This document shows positions 3,820 through 17,007 of a stretch of DNA of 37,470 nucleotides, in pieces. Position numbers and translations under genes: made by a program. The notes beneath the pieces are model-generated. The model saw only the letters and a list, made by a program, of their open reading frames with translations. It did no database searches and was not told where the DNA came from. This DNA comes from Thiobacillus denitrificans. GTDB lineage: Bacteria; Pseudomonadota; Gammaproteobacteria; Burkholderiales; Thiobacillaceae. Location of the stretch: positions 1-37,470 of the forward strand of contig DYFW01000012.1 in NCBI GenBank assembly GCA_020725005.1. Reading direction: 5' to 3'. Numbering within the stretch: position 1 is the stretch's first letter; every line of letters starts with the position of its first letter.

Positions 3820-6678
3820 ATGGCTGACGCGTCCCTCGAACCCTCGATCCAGGCAATCGGCCGCACGCTTTACCGGCGCGCGCGGGCGCATCCACCCGGC
3901 TTCTACGCCGGACGCCGCATGATGCTGAAGCGGGCCATCGCCGACGCGCGGCTGCGTGATGCGCTGTTCCAGTTCGTCGACGTCCTGCCGCAACTGCGCG
4001 ACGCCCCCATGATCGCCACGCACTTTCGCGCCTGTCTCGGCAGCTTCGAACTCGGCGGGGTGTTGGGGCGGCTGCTGAAGGTGGGCGGGCAGGTCTGGGT
4101 GGCGCCGCTGCTGCAGCGGGCGGTGGCGCGCACGGCACGCCTGTTCGTGGTCGAGGAGGACGCCCAAGTCTTTGCCGCGACCTTGAAGAAAATCACCGGC
4201 CTGCCCGCCACGGTGAGCCTCGACGCCCTCGGCGAGGTGGTGCTCTCCGAGGCCGAGGCCGACGCCTATGCCGCGCGCATCCTGAAGCTGCTCGCCTGGC
4301 TCGCGGCCGGTTCCGCGCAGCAGCCCGATCTTTCGATCAAGCTGTCCGCGCTCACCCCGCGCTTCGACCCGATCGATCTGGAAGGCAGTGTGGCACGCGT
4401 GCTCGGTCGCCTGGAGCCGATCCGCGCCGCAGCCGCAGAAGCCGGCGTCAGCCTCACCCTCGACATGGAAAACCACGACAGCCGGCCGCTGGTGCTGGCG
4501 GTGTTCCGGACCCTGGCGGAACGGCCCGGCCAAGCGCCTGGCCTTGCGCTGCAGGCGTATCGCCCGGACGCCGAGGCGGACCTGCACGCCTTGCTGGCCC
4601 TGCCGTGGACGCCCGAGCGACCGCTGCGCGTGCGCCTGGTCAAGGGCGCCTACTGGGACAGCGAGGTGGCGCTGGCGGCGCAGCGCTTCTGGCCCTGCCC
4701 GGTGTACACCGACAAGGCCGCCACCGACGCGAGTTTCGAACGGCTCACCGCGTTGCTGTTCGCGGCGGGTGACCGCGTCTACCCGATGATCGCCAGCCAC
4801 AACCTGCGGTCGCTGGCGCACGCGCTGGCGCTGGCGCGTGCGTCGGGACGCGCGGCCGCCAGCTGGGAAGTGCAGATGCTCTACGGCATGGCCGACCCGC
4901 TCGCCGCCGCCGTGGTCGGGGAGGGCGCGCGCCTGCGCCTGTATCTGCCGGTGGGCGACCTCATCGGCGGCATCGCCTATCTCATCCGCCGGCTGCTGGA
5001 AAACACCGCGTCCACCTCGGTGCTGCGCCAGGCGTATCTGGAGGACGCGCCGCCCGAGAGCCTGCTCGCCCCGCCGCAGGTGACATCGCAGGAATCCGCG
5101 CCCGAGCCGGGGTTCCGCAACACGCCGCTGGCCGATTTCAGCGACGACGCGCCGCGCCGGGCGATGCGCGCGGCGCTGGCGCAGGCGGCGGGGGAATCGG
5201 GGCGCGCCTATCCGCTGCACCCGGTCCTGCGATGCGAGACGGCGACGCGCTGGCACGACAGCCGCAACCCGGCCGACCCGGCGCACATCCTCGGCCGCAT
5301 CGAACAGGCCGAGCCCGCGCACGCGCAGCAGGCGATACGCCATGCCGTCGCCGCCTTCCCCGGCTGGCGCGAGACCGCGGTGGGCGAACGCGCGCGCCTG
5401 TGCCGCGCGGCGGCGAACCTCATGGCCCGCCGCCGCTTCGAACTGGCGGCGTGGCAGGTGCTGGAAGTCGGCAAGGCGTGGCGCGAGGCCGACGCCGACG
5501 TGGCCGAGGCGATCGACTGCTGGAACTATTACGCGGATGTTGCGGAGCGGCTGCTGGACTGGCGAACGACGCGCGACTTTCCCGGCGAGAAGAACGCCAC
5601 GTGCTACGAGGCGCTGGGGCCGACGGCCGTCATCGCGCCCTGGAATTTCCCGCTCGCCATCCTTTCCGGCATGAGCGCGGCGGCGCTGGTGTGCGGCAAT
5701 CCGGTCATCATGAAGCCGGCCACGCCGGCGCAACTCAATGCCTGCAAGCTGCACGACATTCTGCTGGAGGCCGGCTTCCCGCCCGCGGTGGCGCAGCTGC
5801 TGCCGGGCGACGGCGCGACGCTGGGTTCGTTGCTGGCCGCACATCCCGACATTGCCGCGATCGCCTTCACCGGCTCGCGCGAGGTCGGGCTCGCGCTCAT
5901 CGAACAGGCGCTCCGCCGCAGCCCCGCGCAGCGGCGCGTCAAGCGCGTGGTGTGCGAAATGGGCGGCAAGAACGCGATCATCGTCGACGAGGATGCCGAC
6001 CTCGACGAGGCGGTAACGCACATCCTGGCGTCCGCGTTCGGCTACCAGGGACAGAAATGTTCCGCCGCTTCGCGCCTCATCACCGTGGGGCGCGTGCACG
6101 AACGCCTGCTGGCGCGGCTGGCCGACGCGCTGGCGAGCTGGCCGCCGGGTCCGCCCGTCGATCCGCAATTCCGCTTCGGCCCGCTCATCAACCCGCAGGC
6201 GCTGGAGAAGGCGCAACGCTATTTCGATATCGGCCGCGCGGAAGGCAGGCTGGTGTACCAGGGCAAGGCGCCGGCGGGGGGGCACTACTTTGCGCCCGCG
6301 ATCTTTGCCGACATCCAGCCGCACCACCGGCTGGCGCGCGAGGAAATCTTCGCGCCGATCCTCGCCGTGCTGCATGCGCCCGATTTCGACACCGCGCTGG
6401 CGTGGGCGAACGACAGCGACTACGCGCTGACCGGCGGCGTGTTCTCGCGCCTGCCCGCGCACCTGGACGCGGCGCAGCGGCAATTCCGCGTCGGCAATCT
6501 CTATTTCAATCGCAGCATCACCGGCGCCCGCATCGGCATCCAGCCGTTCGGCGGAACGGCGCTCTCGGGCACCGGCGTGCAGGCGGGCAGCGAGGATTAT
6601 CTGCGGCAGTTCGTGTGGTCGCGCACGGTCAGCAGCAACCAGCTGCGCCATGGCTACGTGCCGGGAACGAGCCGCTAG
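3820..6678 (+). CDS. putA: PutA, bifunctional proline dehydrogenase / P5C dehydrogenase
   Basis: Oxidises proline to glutamate in two steps with substrate channelling: FAD-dependent proline dehydrogenase, then NAD-dependent glutamate-semialdehyde dehydrogenase. The protein is 952 aa, the short PutA type with no N-terminal ribbon-helix-helix repressor domain. The PRODH barrel spans about residues 60-420, with LVKGAYWDSE and the proline-carboxylate-binding pair in YLIRRLLENT. The ALDH domain spans about residues 470-945, with APWNFPL, FTGSREVG, the general base in CEMGGKNA (about E713) and the catalytic Cys in GYQGQKCSA (about C747). The start at 3820 begins the family N-terminus. It stands alone, flanked by repeats on the left and the convergent rhodanese/MBL gene on the right. 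No evidence of regulation beyond the -10 box. Confidence 0.96.
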   Translation: MADASLEPSIQAIGRTLYRRARAHPPGFYAGRRMMLKRAIADARLRDALFQFVDVLPQLRDAPMIATHFRACLGSFELGGVLGRLLKVGGQVWVAPLLQRAVARTARLFVVEEDAQVFAATLKKITGLPATVSLDALGEVVLSEAEADAYAARILKLLAWLAAGSAQQPDLSIKLSALTPRFDPIDLEGSVARVLGRLEPIRAAAAEAGVSLTLDMENHDSRPLVLAVFRTLAERPGQAPGLALQAYRPDAEADLHALLALPWTPERPLRVRLVKGAYWDSEVALAAQRFWPCPVYTDKAATDASFERLTALLFAAGDRVYPMIASHNLRSLAHALALARASGRAAASWEVQMLYGMADPLAAAVVGEGARLRLYLPVGDLIGGIAYLIRRLLENTASTSVLRQAYLEDAPPESLLAPPQVTSQESAPEPGFRNTPLADFSDDAPRRAMRAALAQAAGESGRAYPLHPVLRCETATRWHDSRNPADPAHILGRIEQAEPAHAQQAIRHAVAAFPGWRETAVGERARLCRAAANLMARRRFELAAWQVLEVGKAWREADADVAEAIDCWNYYADVAERLLDWRTTRDFPGEKNATCYEALGPTAVIAPWNFPLAILSGMSAAALVCGNPVIMKPATPAQLNACKLHDILLEAGFPPAVAQLLPGDGATLGSLLAAHPDIAAIAFTGSREVGLALIEQALRRSPAQRRVKRVVCEMGGKNAIIVDEDADLDEAVTHILASAFGYQGQKCSAASRLITVGRVHERLLARLADALASWPPGPPVDPQFRFGPLINPQALEKAQRYFDIGRAEGRLVYQGKAPAGGHYFAPAIFADIQPHHRLAREEIFAPILAVLHAPDFDTALAWANDSDYALTGGVFSRLPAHLDAAQRQFRVGNLYFNRSITGARIGIQPFGGTALSGTGVQAGSEDYLRQFVWSRTVSSNQLRHGYVPGTSR

Positions 6679-15077: not shown

Positions 15078-15237
15078 AGTGTGGTGTTGCACGCTTGGCG
15101 GGACAAATAAAACCGATGGTTTTTTGTTCAGGGCGAGGCGCAAACCGCAGCAATCGTTCGACTATTGCAAGGATTTGCAACAAAGCCATGGACGAAAAGA
15201 CGCGATTTATGTTCCGGATAGCGTGCAACACCACACT
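15078..15237. repeat. MITE-like palindromic element A (copy 2, inverted)
   Basis: A 160-bp element. Its reverse complement matches the 3403-3563 copy throughout, with about 9 differences by eye. Terminal inverted repeats AGTGTGGTGTTGCACGCT at 15078-15095 and the complement at 15220-15237 are perfect. The central hairpin has one mismatch (GCAATCG/CTATTGC). The two copies face opposite directions and flank 11.5 kb that includes putA, dsrA and aprMBA. Confidence 0.88.
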
Positions 15238-15360: not shown

Positions 15361-15498
15361 TTATACGCATAATGTATAGCAACGTAAAATCAACGGCTTA
15401 CACGCTTGTCTTGAGTTATCGGAACTTGAATGCAGGAATCCGCTACGGGGCAGGGATTTCAGCGGGCCATAAAAAATACTTTGGGCAGGTTTTGCCAT
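15361..15498 (-). CDS. Possible small ORF ending in the left att site
   Basis: A 45-codon ORF with an excellent ribosome-binding site (GGAGG, 7-base spacer) before the ATG at 15498. The product has no recognised family. Its last residues and TAA stop are encoded by the dif-like left junction (15362-15389), so integration would alter its C-terminus. No homology can be judged from sequence alone; the RBS is the only support. It would be the fourth gene of the minus-strand set of the Xer-dependent element, about 300 bp downstream of the XafT-like gene. The intervening 15499-15797 appears non-coding, with an 8-bp hairpin at 15528-15556. Confidence 0.4.
   Translation of the reverse strand: MAKPAQSIFYGPLKSLPRSGFLHSSSDNSRQACKPLILRCYTLCV
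15362..15389 (+). other. Left att site of the integrated element (degenerate dif-like)
   Basis: XerC-arm-like TATACGCATAA (15362-15372), central TGTATA (15373-15378), then GCAACGTAAAA (15379-15389) where the XerD arm should be. The XerC arm and centre match dif and the XerD side is degenerate. This is the junction expected when an element whose attP lacks a proper XerD site inserts at dif. Confidence 0.8.
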
Positions 15499-15797
15499 CG
15501 TAGGGCCTCCGGGGTTCGGGAACAAGGCGGACGCCTGCGCGCTTCGCTGGCGTCCGTGGTGGGTTGAGGGGGTTTGGCTTGCAGGTGGGAAGCTCCCGCA
15601 GGGCGCAGCGGCAGGCGCACCGAGGGGCCGCCGGCGGGAGGCAGGCACCACCCCCCGTTGTGGCGCTGGGGCCTGTGCTCGCACGCGAGCCGCGCGCGGC
15701 AGGGGTCCGGGGTAGGCGACGTTCACGGCGCCGGCTCGTGGCGTGGGCGCGGCACGCCGCGCCTCTCGCCACCTTGCCGGGCACCGCTTCCGTGTGC

Positions 15798-16217
15798 TCA
15801 TGCGACCACCCGCAGCGCGGGCCGGTCCACAGCAGGGACAGGCGCAGGCTTGCGGGCCTCCATGTAGCGGCGGGCGAGACTGACGACGAGCTGAAGGTTT
15901 TGCAGCTCCCATGCGTGGAACGTGCGTCCGTCAGGCGTCACCAGAGCCCCATCACGGGCAAATCGCCAGCCTTCCCACCCCTCGACATGGACGATGGCCT
16001 TGGCGCGCATCCTGACGAGCTTGAAGGCCGGGTAGGGAATGCGGTTGCAGCCTGTCTCCCAGTTGCGCACGGTGCGCAACGAGACGCCCAGGTATTCGGC
16101 GGCGGCGGTCTGCGTCAGGCCGGCGGTCTTGCGCTCGGTGCGGAAGCGCTCGGGATCGGCCCAGACGAAATGCGGATGCCGGCGCGGGTGCTTCTTGCGG
16201 CGGTGTTTCTCAATCAT
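15798..16217 (-). CDS. VC1465/XafT-family Xer recombination activation factor (HTH + DUF3653)
   Basis: A 139-aa basic protein. An XRE-type HTH spans about 25-65 (RKTAGLTQTAAAEYLGVSLR, then TVRNWETG). The C-terminal part matches the DUF3653 pattern: GWEGWRFARDGALVTPDG, then FHAWELQNLQL. This two-domain layout is that of VC1465-family proteins of dif-integrating filamentous and satellite phages, one of which (XafT of the TLC phage) activates XerCD recombination independently of FtsK. It is last of three overlapping genes and starts 8 bp inside the preceding gene, with GGGGGC upstream. The nearby dif site and degenerate left site support the same job here. The family call is strong; the activity is inferred. 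Confidence 0.85.
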   Translation of the reverse strand: MIEKHRRKKHPRRHPHFVWADPERFRTERKTAGLTQTAAAEYLGVSLRTVRNWETGCNRIPYPAFKLVRMRAKAIVHVEGWEGWRFARDGALVTPDGRTFHAWELQNLQLVVSLARRYMEARKPAPVPAVDRPALRVVA

Positions 16218-16497
16218 CGCGGCCCCCTGTCAGCAGTTCGGCCGGGACGCCGTCGAGGTCGGCCGCGAGGCCGTCGTCGATGTCGTCCGGGTAGAGATCG
16301 GGCGCAGGCATGATGCGGCCCGCTGCGGACTCGGGGAACGGGCAGGACGCGACCAGATCGGCGAGACGCGAGCGCAGCACGTAGGCGGTGGCCGAGAGGC
16401 CCTCGGGCTCCTCGATGCCGGTCAGAACGTGGCCGATGGCGTCGGCGAGGATGGCAAGCTCCAGATGCCAGGCGTTGAGGCGGTCGGCGTGGCTCAT
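16210..16497 (-). CDS. Hypothetical protein of the IMEX operon
   Basis: A 95-aa acidic protein, not recognised. The N-terminal half is helical (LNAWHLELAILADAIGHVL) and the C-terminal tail is rich in Asp and Glu. The ATG at 16497 overlaps the stop of the upstream HTH gene by 4 bp (ATGA), and its own stop overlaps the XafT-like start by 8 bp, so the three genes are translated as a unit. The longer frame to 16815 overlaps the HTH gene and is rejected. The acidic tail could indicate protein-protein contact or DNA mimicry, but nothing in the sequence proves this. Confidence 0.65.
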   Translation of the reverse strand: MSHADRLNAWHLELAILADAIGHVLTGIEEPEGLSATAYVLRSRLADLVASCPFPESAAGRIMPAPDLYPDDIDDGLAADLDGVPAELLTGGRDD

Positions 16498-16709
16498 GCT
16501 GCACCGCCCTTCGCGATCATGCGCAGGCTTATCGGGCTCATGCTGTCCAAGGCGAGCTTCGCGGGCGGGTAGATGACCCACTTGCCAGTCAGGACGTGTT
16601 TGCGGGCGCCGACGACCTTGCCGGCGCGACACCAGTTCAGCAGGCAGCGCTCGGAGACGCCGATTTGCTCCGCGAAGCGGCGAACGGAAATGCCGTCTTG
16701 GTGGCTCAT
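16494..16709 (-). CDS. Small HTH DNA-binding protein (excisionase-like)
   Basis: A 71-aa protein with an N-terminal helix-turn-helix (ISVRRFAEQIGVSERCLLNW) followed by a short basic wing region (CRAGKVVGARKHVLTGKWVI), as in MerR/excisionase-type or phage regulatory proteins. It is first gene of the three-gene operon. The ATG at 16709 has GGGGGTG upstream and the stop overlaps the next start. Candidate roles are repressor of the operon, acting at the palindrome 16806-16827, or architectural factor for Xer recombination at the ends. The sequence does not distinguish between them. Confidence 0.72.
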   Translation of the reverse strand: MSHQDGISVRRFAEQIGVSERCLLNWCRAGKVVGARKHVLTGKWVIYPPAKLALDSMSPISLRMIAKGGAA

Positions 16710-16805
16710 GCGGCACCCCCGAAAATGGCTGATTTTTGCCCCACGTCTGGATGCGGGTTTGCGGGGTGTTTCTCCCGTGCAGGCCGCGTGGATGCGTGGG
16801 GGGTG

Positions 16806-16827
16806 TTTGTCTCACCCATGAGACTAA
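16806..16827 (-). promoter_or_regulatory. Palindromic operator upstream of the IMEX operon
   Basis: Inverted repeat GTCTCA (16809-16814), spacer CCCA, TGAGAC (16819-16824). With one mismatch the arms extend to 9 bp each (16806-16827). On the minus strand TAATAC (16834-16839) lies just upstream and could be a -10 box, placing the operator over the start of transcription. No good -35 was found. Binding by one of the element's HTH proteins is inferred. Confidence 0.5.
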
Positions 16828-16828
16828 G

Positions 16829-16917
16829 TCCGGGTATTACAGAGGACCCGGACAAAATCCGGCGACCCTCGACCGAGGGGCTAAAAATCCGATCAGCCGA
16901 CGACCCCGAAACGGGGT
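16829..16917. other. Three hairpins near the right end of the IMEX
   Basis: TCCGGGT/ACCCGGA (16829-16835 with 16846-16852), CCCTC/GAGGG (16866-16879) and ACCCCG/CGGGGT (16903-16917, 3-nt loop), spaced through non-coding DNA between the operon promoter and dif. Such arrays are typical of single-strand replication origins or packaging signals in filamentous and satellite phages, but no nick motif is recognised. The whole 16710-17233 interval has no gene. Confidence 0.45.
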
Positions 16918-16979
16918 GATTCTGGCGACGGAGGAATGCGGGTTTCCGAGGCGGAACGGATTGCCTCTTCCCGTCGGAT

Positions 16980-17007
16980 ACTTCGCATAATGTATATTAT
17001 GTTAAAT
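16980..17007 (+). other. dif chromosome dimer resolution site (right junction of IMEX)
   Basis: XerC arm ACTTCGCATAA (16980-16990), central TGTATA (16991-16996) and XerD arm TTATGTTAAAT (16997-17007). From CGCATAA onward this is identical to E. coli dif; only the four outer XerC-arm bases differ. It is therefore almost certainly the functional dif, rebuilt by integration, and marks the replication terminus. Confidence 0.93.

Follow-up and report, generated by a model that had tools for sequence, protein, structure and literature searches.

A small dif-integrated unit of Thiobacillus denitrificans as a probable inovirus satellite with a XafT-family gene and origin-like hairpins

Known elements that exploit Xer recombination

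Among the described systems closest to the element considered here is TLC-phi of Vibrio cholerae, a satellite of about 4.7 kb; the element itself, a unit of 1,618 bp between two dif-type sites, has about a third of that length, as do similar units in other genomes, and lies in a stretch of 37,470 nucleotides of T. denitrificans (assembly GCA_020725005.1, contig DYFW01000012.1), which is called the window throughout. RS1, the satellite of CTX-phi, is likewise a small, dif-linked satellite of a filamentous phage, but it has replication and regulatory genes of its own and is not known to have a XafT. Laboratory phagemids have a helper origin without helper genes, as the unit appears to have, but they are man-made and lack an integration system. 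A plasmid was reportedly described as an inovirus satellite by Schmid et al. in 2024; to judge by that title, it is like the unit in being a replicon that exploits an inovirus and unlike it in being an autonomous plasmid. Midonet et al. are said to have found in 2019 that XafT-like integrative mobile elements exploiting Xer (IMEXs) are widespread in beta- and gammaproteobacteria, and XafT-bearing elements as such are therefore not new.

According to a passage of PMC9765430, an IMEX of V. cholerae codes for the XerD-activating factor XafT. TLC-phi resembles the units in its XafT-family protein, its integration at dif and its conserved XerC arm and centre beside a degenerate XerD arm (passages of PMC4246890 and PMC5357621), and it is also a satellite without morphogenesis genes. 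In contrast, it has an autonomous replication module (a passage of PMC4246890), whereas the units have no recognisable replication initiation protein (Rep), and those of Thiobacillus have inovirus origin-like hairpins in place of the module. Other IMEXs, such as the gonococcal genetic island (GGI), EludIMEX-1 and LME-1, are also mobile DNA that uses host Xer and dif and has one modified site; they differ from the unit in their transfer or cargo genes and, for GGI and EludIMEX-1, in their size of 29-57 kb (passages of PMC5357621). No title among the literature matches listed concerned Rep-less XafT elements, which is weak evidence because subscription journals were mostly outside the search, and the passages of the papers naming the activation factor only cite it. 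What would be new is a satellite of the TLC type that exploits Xer and has been pared down to an activator, copied helper origins and one or two small genes. We regard the unit as probably of this kind, namely an integrated inovirus satellite that has no recognisable replication, coat or assembly gene, integrates by way of XerCD activated by XafT and borrows a helper origin.

Boundary sites and genes of the unit

The initial annotation had described two direct dif-like sites bounding 1.6 kb, the right one near perfect and the left one with a good XerC arm and centre but no proper XerD arm, and all of this was borne out. The sites were located as claimed, at 15362 and 16980, on the same strand and 1,618 bp apart. 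The left XerD arm matches TTATGTTAAAT at 5 of 11 positions, and the 28-mer on the right is complete and identical to the T. denitrificans dif in the part of the published table that we consulted (PMC2731167). At least 11 of 13 matches to CGCATAATGTATA were found at only these two places within the window, and exact CGCATAATGTATA at only these two places in the whole genome, a draft of 388 contigs that is 99% complete. The right site is presumably the working dif of this chromosome, and, from the arms themselves, TATACGCATAA joined to TTATGTTAAAT is a plausible original host dif. The unit combines the two direct dif-type sites of an IMEX, one of them a complete dif, with the dif-like XerC arm and centre and degenerate XerD arm of a TLC-phi-type attP. 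When 35 genomes of the same genus were searched for the dif pattern with up to 3 mismatches, exactly one match was found in 25 and none in 10, so that single dif sites are the rule among relatives.

Three overlapping genes on the minus strand form an operon within the unit, in the order gene 3, gene 2 and the xafT-like gene (the overlap of genes 3 and 2 being ATGA); of the "three or four small genes" proposed at first, three stood and the fourth found no support. The 139-aa protein had been assigned to the VC1465/DUF3653 family, and hidden Markov models placed it there: NF040522, "VC1465 family Xer recombination activation factor", gave 131.2 bits (cut-off 70) and DUF3653 gave 51 bits (cut-off 22.4). 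Its function as a XafT here is suggested by the family name and by the papers on TLC-phi. In seven of seven Thiobacillus units compared, xafT was accompanied by gene 2, the conserved middle gene; gene 3 was found in five of the seven (it is absent from G002 and G013; genomes and loci are cited by our G and L numbers) and also in G139. All three genes are under selection, the ratio of nonsynonymous to synonymous substitution (dN/dS, Nei-Gojobori) being below 1 in each: 0.18-0.36 for xafT and 0.10-0.42 for gene 2 (21 pairs of relatives each) and 0.15-0.66 for gene 3 (15 pairs), figures that are approximate because several dS values exceeded 1.

Replication and virion genes were searched for in several ways, and the earlier claim that the unit has no replication or capsid gene agrees with the outcome. 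The scans of the Pfam, PHROGs and NCBIfam libraries took in the window unit's three proteins, none of which matched a Rep or a virion or assembly protein. In searches against 23 unit sequences, four inovirus Reps gave a best E of 0.46 and two Zot queries a best E of 0.61, and these six together with SSB and RstB-like proteins gave nothing better than E 0.2. The XafT protein, compared by tblastn with known phages and plasmids, matched one record of each, partially and in the helix-turn-helix (HTH) part only, and blastn of two units against phages returned a dif match for one and nothing for the other.

These results bear on the possibility that the units are decayed remnants, now immobile, of a larger XafT-encoding inovirus or TLC-like prophage at dif that lost its rep and morphogenesis genes. 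Such parents exist, since L156 (5947-6387), an inovirus of IMG/VR and the sole examined one that also has a xafT-like gene, encodes both Zot-like and XafT-like proteins; it carries a two-hairpin module related to that described below, and the loss of gene 3 from two of seven units would also fit decay. However, xafT and gene 2 are intact in all seven units and gene 3 in five, with dN/dS of 0.10-0.66, the boundary sites are intact, tandem pairs of units are non-identical, and the origin-like modules are maintained by compensatory changes. Furthermore, tblastn found no counterpart in the inovirus loci examined for genes 2 and 3 of the window or for two proteins of Burkholderiaceae-type units, and the units are therefore not plain inovirus fragments. 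We consider decay unlikely.

Table 1. Features of the unit, in window coordinates
Feature	Position	Strand	Description
Left boundary site	15362..15389	+	TATACGCATAA.TGTATA.GCAACGTAAAA; dif-type XerC arm and centre, non-canonical XerD arm
Palindrome GGCAGGTTTTGCC	15484..15496		94 bp inside left site; candidate protein-binding site
8-bp-stem hairpin	15528..15556		left non-coding part, at the place corresponding to the hairpin of G002 shared with inoviruses; packaging function guessed
xafT-like gene	15798..16217	-	139 aa, HTH and DUF3653; VC1465 family Xer recombination activation factor
Gene 2	16210..16497	-	95 aa; no match over cut-off, best Pfam E 0.13
Gene 3	16494..16709	-	71 aa; first in operon; weak HTH matches, below cut-offs
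Hairpin 1	16809..16824	+	GTCTC-ACCCAT-GAGAC; part of putative borrowed-origin module 16809-16853
Hairpin 2	16828..16853	+	GTCCGGGT-ATTACAGAGG-ACCCGGAC, type B; candidate rolling-circle nick hairpin
Imperfect palindrome partner GGAACGGATTGCC	16953..16965		14 bp from right XerC arm
Right boundary site	16980..17007	+	ACTTCGCATAA.TGTATA.TTATGTTAAAT; complete dif

Hairpins common to the units and inoviruses

When the units were compared by BLAST with nine Thiobacillus loci that bear Zot, short and almost identical blocks of non-coding sequence emerged. These blocks were absent from the matches to 389 kb of other Thiobacillus loci (E <= 1e-4), which consisted of dif ends and of other xafT-like or unit sequence. 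Hairpins of three types were distinguished, and each of the seven Thiobacillus units whose right half could be read had at least one. Type B, the GTCCGGGT-ATTACAGNNG-ACCCGGAC form, which has a second hairpin ahead of it, was found in the window, twice in G011, in G013 and, with compensating changes, in G126; type A (GAACGGACTAGTGTTACTAGCCGTT) was found in G002 and, with changes and an extra base, twice in G011, both units of which carry two hairpin types each; and type C (TTCCGGGT-GTTACTGGGA-ACCCGGAA) was found in the unit of G017. The loop core GTRTTAC is kept while the stems vary. Helper-type cis signals, as expected of a satellite, are in this way present in the window unit and in six other Thiobacillus units.

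The two hairpins of the type-B module covary between satellites and phages. In an alignment of four satellite and four inovirus sequences, 99% of the cells pair and 8 of 13 pairs are changed on both sides, among them all five pairs of hairpin 1; none of 500 shuffles reached as high a value, a test that is inflated by relatedness because the alignment was hand-chosen from matches, and slid controls were 14-53% paired. The type-B pattern with up to 2 mismatches was found at five places in the 117 genomes of the window's family, namely four units and the inovirus of G112, and the reversed-pattern control at none. A covariance model made from the above alignment matched 13 places in 78 loci (1.15 Mb) at E < 0.01, all of them units or inoviruses, including three outside the training set (the G017 unit, the G126 inovirus and L156); in 56 Thiobacillus genomes at E <= 0.05 it matched nine places, which were six units, two inoviruses and one CRISPR (clustered regularly interspaced short palindromic repeats) spacer.

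The spacer lies in G130 (L269 8038-8071, G130:C13) and shares 32 of 33 bases with the G112-type inovirus and 30 of 33 with the G011 units; one more of the 17 readable spacers in that array has a weak match (24 of 27, E 0.004) to this inovirus. A Thiobacillus lineage has therefore met module-bearing DNA as an invader. Other searches were less specific or were rejected. The type-A pattern used for genomes fits only the form in the G011 units; a generic two-hairpin scan picked out 8 of 23 units and has little weight because shuffles also matched in 0-20%; the R1 search of the 299 genomes of the G247 family returned two weak matches that were judged false from the sequence (L232) and from open reading frames (ORFs; L233); the generic pattern GTCTCA..TGAGACTAA had no match; and 18 scattered matches to a GTAACT..GTTAC motif, mostly on large contigs, were judged to be due to chance.

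In inoviruses, these hairpins stand at the start of rep. In L230, hairpin 2 of type B lies in the 36-bp gap that separates the end of the SSB gene (PF02303, at 306) from the start of rep (PF05144, at 343), with hairpin 1 extending into the beginning of the rep ORF. In L227, type A stands between rep (starting at 6190 on the minus strand; PF05144/PF05155) and an RstB-like gene, and in the inovirus of G126 itself type C likewise stands between an SSB-like gene and rep. The exact type-B pattern occurred in four IMG/VR contigs, each with a repB-like Rep (42-100% identity, L230 being the query itself). Furthermore, the type of hairpin goes with the type of Rep: type B was paired with repB in 5 of 5 loci (42-100% identity to the L230 Rep) and type A with repA in 9 of 9 (75-100% identity to the L227 Rep), counts whose independent numbers are smaller because they include the query phages and because L225/L172 and L229/L169 look like the same phages. 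In L176, neither a hairpin nor a Rep match was found in the stretch examined. The "minimal Xer-hijacking satellite" of the initial annotation had been guessed from missing genes, and the hairpins common to the units and to inoviruses at rep genes now lend it support.

It might be asked whether the shared hairpins are regulatory elements (operators or attenuators) or packaging signals rather than origins, with a helper still exploited and the copies arising by excision and repair or by host replication. The case for an origin is one of sequence and position, and the beginning of rep, the place of the phage module, would suit an operator as well. This explanation appears quite improbable to us, since the type of hairpin is tied to the Rep family, and the loop core is kept while the stems vary; a conserved loop with variable stems is the look of rolling-circle nick-site hairpins. 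For one further hairpin, packaging is what we would guess from the sequence: the G002 unit has a hairpin, GTCGCAGG..GACGR..CCTAARCGCTCC, in common with several other inovirus loci, besides a 65-bp block in common with inovirus locus L176. The window's hairpin at the corresponding place (Table 1) is unlike the inovirus hairpin in sequence.

Proposed cycle, distribution and movement of the units

The cycle proposed for a satellite that borrows a helper origin builds on what was computed (anatomy, family membership, recurrence, selection on the genes, and a covarying module shared with the start of inovirus rep and typed with the Rep family), and every enzymatic step of it, including integration, nicking and packaging, is one that we infer. 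Circular unit DNA would carry an attP made of a XerC arm, the centre and a poor XerD arm. XafT would activate XerD at this attP, and its recombination with dif by the host XerCD would place a complete dif at the right end. In the prophage state, the three-gene operon would supply regulators and XafT, which would also excise the unit. On entry of a helper inovirus, the module at 16809-16853, being a copy of the helper's origin, would be nicked by the gpII-type Rep of that phage, which would start rolling-circle replication of the unit, and the coat and Zot-type assembly proteins of the helper would export the single strand.

If this is true, the units are among the smallest integrating DNA satellites known, and the minimal needs of a mobile element come down to one activator of host recombinases and a copied helper origin. 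XafT, studied so far in a Vibrio satellite, would be tied to a class of elements in environmental betaproteobacteria, T. denitrificans would be a safe model of FtsK-independent Xer activation, and the correspondence of hairpin type and Rep type would be a sequence key predicting which phage serves which satellite.

Several observations weigh against this interpretation. No Zot or gpII-type Rep match was found in four of the six Thiobacillus genomes with a hairpin-carrying unit (the window's, G011, G002 and G017), an absence of inoviruses that decay would also explain, and in G013 and G126 the unit and the resident inovirus differ in hairpin type. No comparable hairpin was seen in 12 of the 14 Burkholderiaceae-type units, in the G290 unit or in the truncated G139 unit, and the packaging-type hairpin was seen in one unit only, that of G002. 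The hairpin could, as discussed above, be an operator or attenuator. In addition, blastn of 7-8 kb flanks against 20 loci revealed no syntenic empty site with the same flanks, the matches being short or inverted and the longest, in L078, 1.3 kb.

Similar units were found in other genomes by a close match in the XerC arm and centre, the left XerD arms being free to vary, and the conservation of the XerC arm and centre is therefore built in by the near-identity that was sought there. In total, 21 paired-site units were found in 17 genomes, 20 of which are 1.2-2.0 kb long with an inner XafT match at E <= 1e-9. The 21st, in G290 (L179 9325-10282, reverse-strand coordinates), is at dif, has 930 bp and a XafT match of only 6e-4, below the cut-off, and would be the smallest member if real. 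The left XerD arm departs from TTATGTTAAAT in all 21, matching it at 2-5 of 11 positions in the Thiobacillaceae units (including that of G139 and a partial unit of G111). NF040522 matched over its cut-off in 9 of the 117 genomes of the window's family, in seven of which a dif-type site stands beside the match: both sites are present in the window genome, G011, G002, G013 and G126, and in G017 and G139 one site is present and the other side is a contig end. The matches in G064 (at a contig end) and G072 had no dif-type sites, and those in G127 and G085 were below the cut-off. A class-wide sample yielded 3 of 369 genomes at E <= 1e-15, including the window genome and G290.

In the family of G247, XafT was matched in 15 of 299 genomes. 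Eleven of the 15 had paired sites that were accepted, and these genomes contain 14 units of 1.2-2.0 kb, with tandem pairs in three of them; the remaining four (G738, G637, G654 and G547) had no accepted site pair, and six rows (L207 +, L208 -, L209 -, L211 381, L213 603 and L214 +) were dropped as chance site matches. We call these units Burkholderiaceae-type, a tentative label; their dif has the form GATACGA.TGTATA and resembles the Rhodoferax dif given in PMC2731167, in the part consulted. Two of the 14 (G632 and G624) have GTGAGGTGTTACA..CTCAC, which also stands at the beginning of rep in inovirus L234; this type-D pattern matched three contigs, L234, the tailed-phage-like L236 and L235, which had no Rep match. 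For another hairpin of Burkholderiaceae-type units, ATGGGGGGCACACCCCCCAT, the pattern tried matched nothing in IMG/VR. Units that differ from each other stand in tandem pairs in G011, G247, G692 and G791; those of G011, also T. denitrificans, have 1,855 and 1,718 bp, the same attP arm and different middle genes. We put it at about an even chance that the units make up a widespread class of natural phagemids of 0.9-2 kb, in which xafT is the sole recognised mobility gene and the exchangeable origins are copied from different inoviruses, so that the two origins of the G011 units would answer to two unrelated helpers.

In G011a, G247a, G692a, G791a, G013 and G126, what adjoins the unit on the right is the arm of another element and not dif. 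The units of G013 and G126 adjoin the conserved left end of a large island, which in G032 extends over about 118 kb to a dif-type site at its right end, and a unit might thus move by co-excision with a neighbouring dif-integrated island and not with phages. In the window, G011 and G002, however, dif forms the right end of the unit or pair, with no further dif-type site in the 7-15 kb examined on the left, and hitchhiking of this kind would leave the inovirus hairpins unexplained; we hold it to be very unlikely. The island itself (G032:C17 3913-122581; L150, L137, L181-L186; L149 9999 onward), with about 118 kb between its ends, has a left dif-type end with the arm TTAGCAAGTCC/TTAGCGGTTTC and a right dif-type end with the XerC arm TATGCACATAA. 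In 12 Thiobacillus genomes, 1.7-5.8 kb of the left end is conserved at about 90-98%. A ParA-type ATPase is encoded at this end, and ParB- and Ssb-like genes were recognised by ORF reading only; the island looks like an integrative and conjugative element using dif. The inovirus of L169 (G112:C146), which has a type-B origin-like module, lies 0.8 kb from a dif with the XerC arm ACTTCGCATAA, and no boundary was found on its left within 14 kb.

Short motifs recur near the boundary sites. In five of the six two-site Thiobacillus units, GGCA-N5-TGCC is located 93-94 bp inside the left site, and in five of six it is located 14 bp from the right XerC arm (in imperfect form in the window). In 12 of 14 Burkholderiaceae-type units, GAA-N(2-5)-TTC is located 10-26 bp inside the XerD-like arm, compared with 4.3% of other 50-bp windows in those units, 1 of 14 right ends and 1 of 11 host flanks, this motif having been selected post hoc after inspection of the sequences. 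As far as can be judged from the letters, the palindromes and GAA..TTC motifs may be bound by XafT or its partners, and a DNA-bound activator could stand in for the missing XerD arm.

Triplet direct repeats, TAGTCAGTTGG.. ending ..TAGTCACACCA or TTAGCAGGTTGC.., end about 30-40 bp to the left of many dif-type sites (L078, L083, L116, L118, L147, L066 at 7198, and others). They resemble transposon ends, possibly Tn7-like, and no transposase was identified among the three ORFs tested near them (two long ones near G024 and one near G004). Just left of the unit in the window, perfect 17-bp inverted copies (AGTGTGGTGTTGCACGC at 15078-15094 and GCGTGCAACACCACACT at 15221-15237) lie about 126 bp apart and are perhaps a small insertion remnant.

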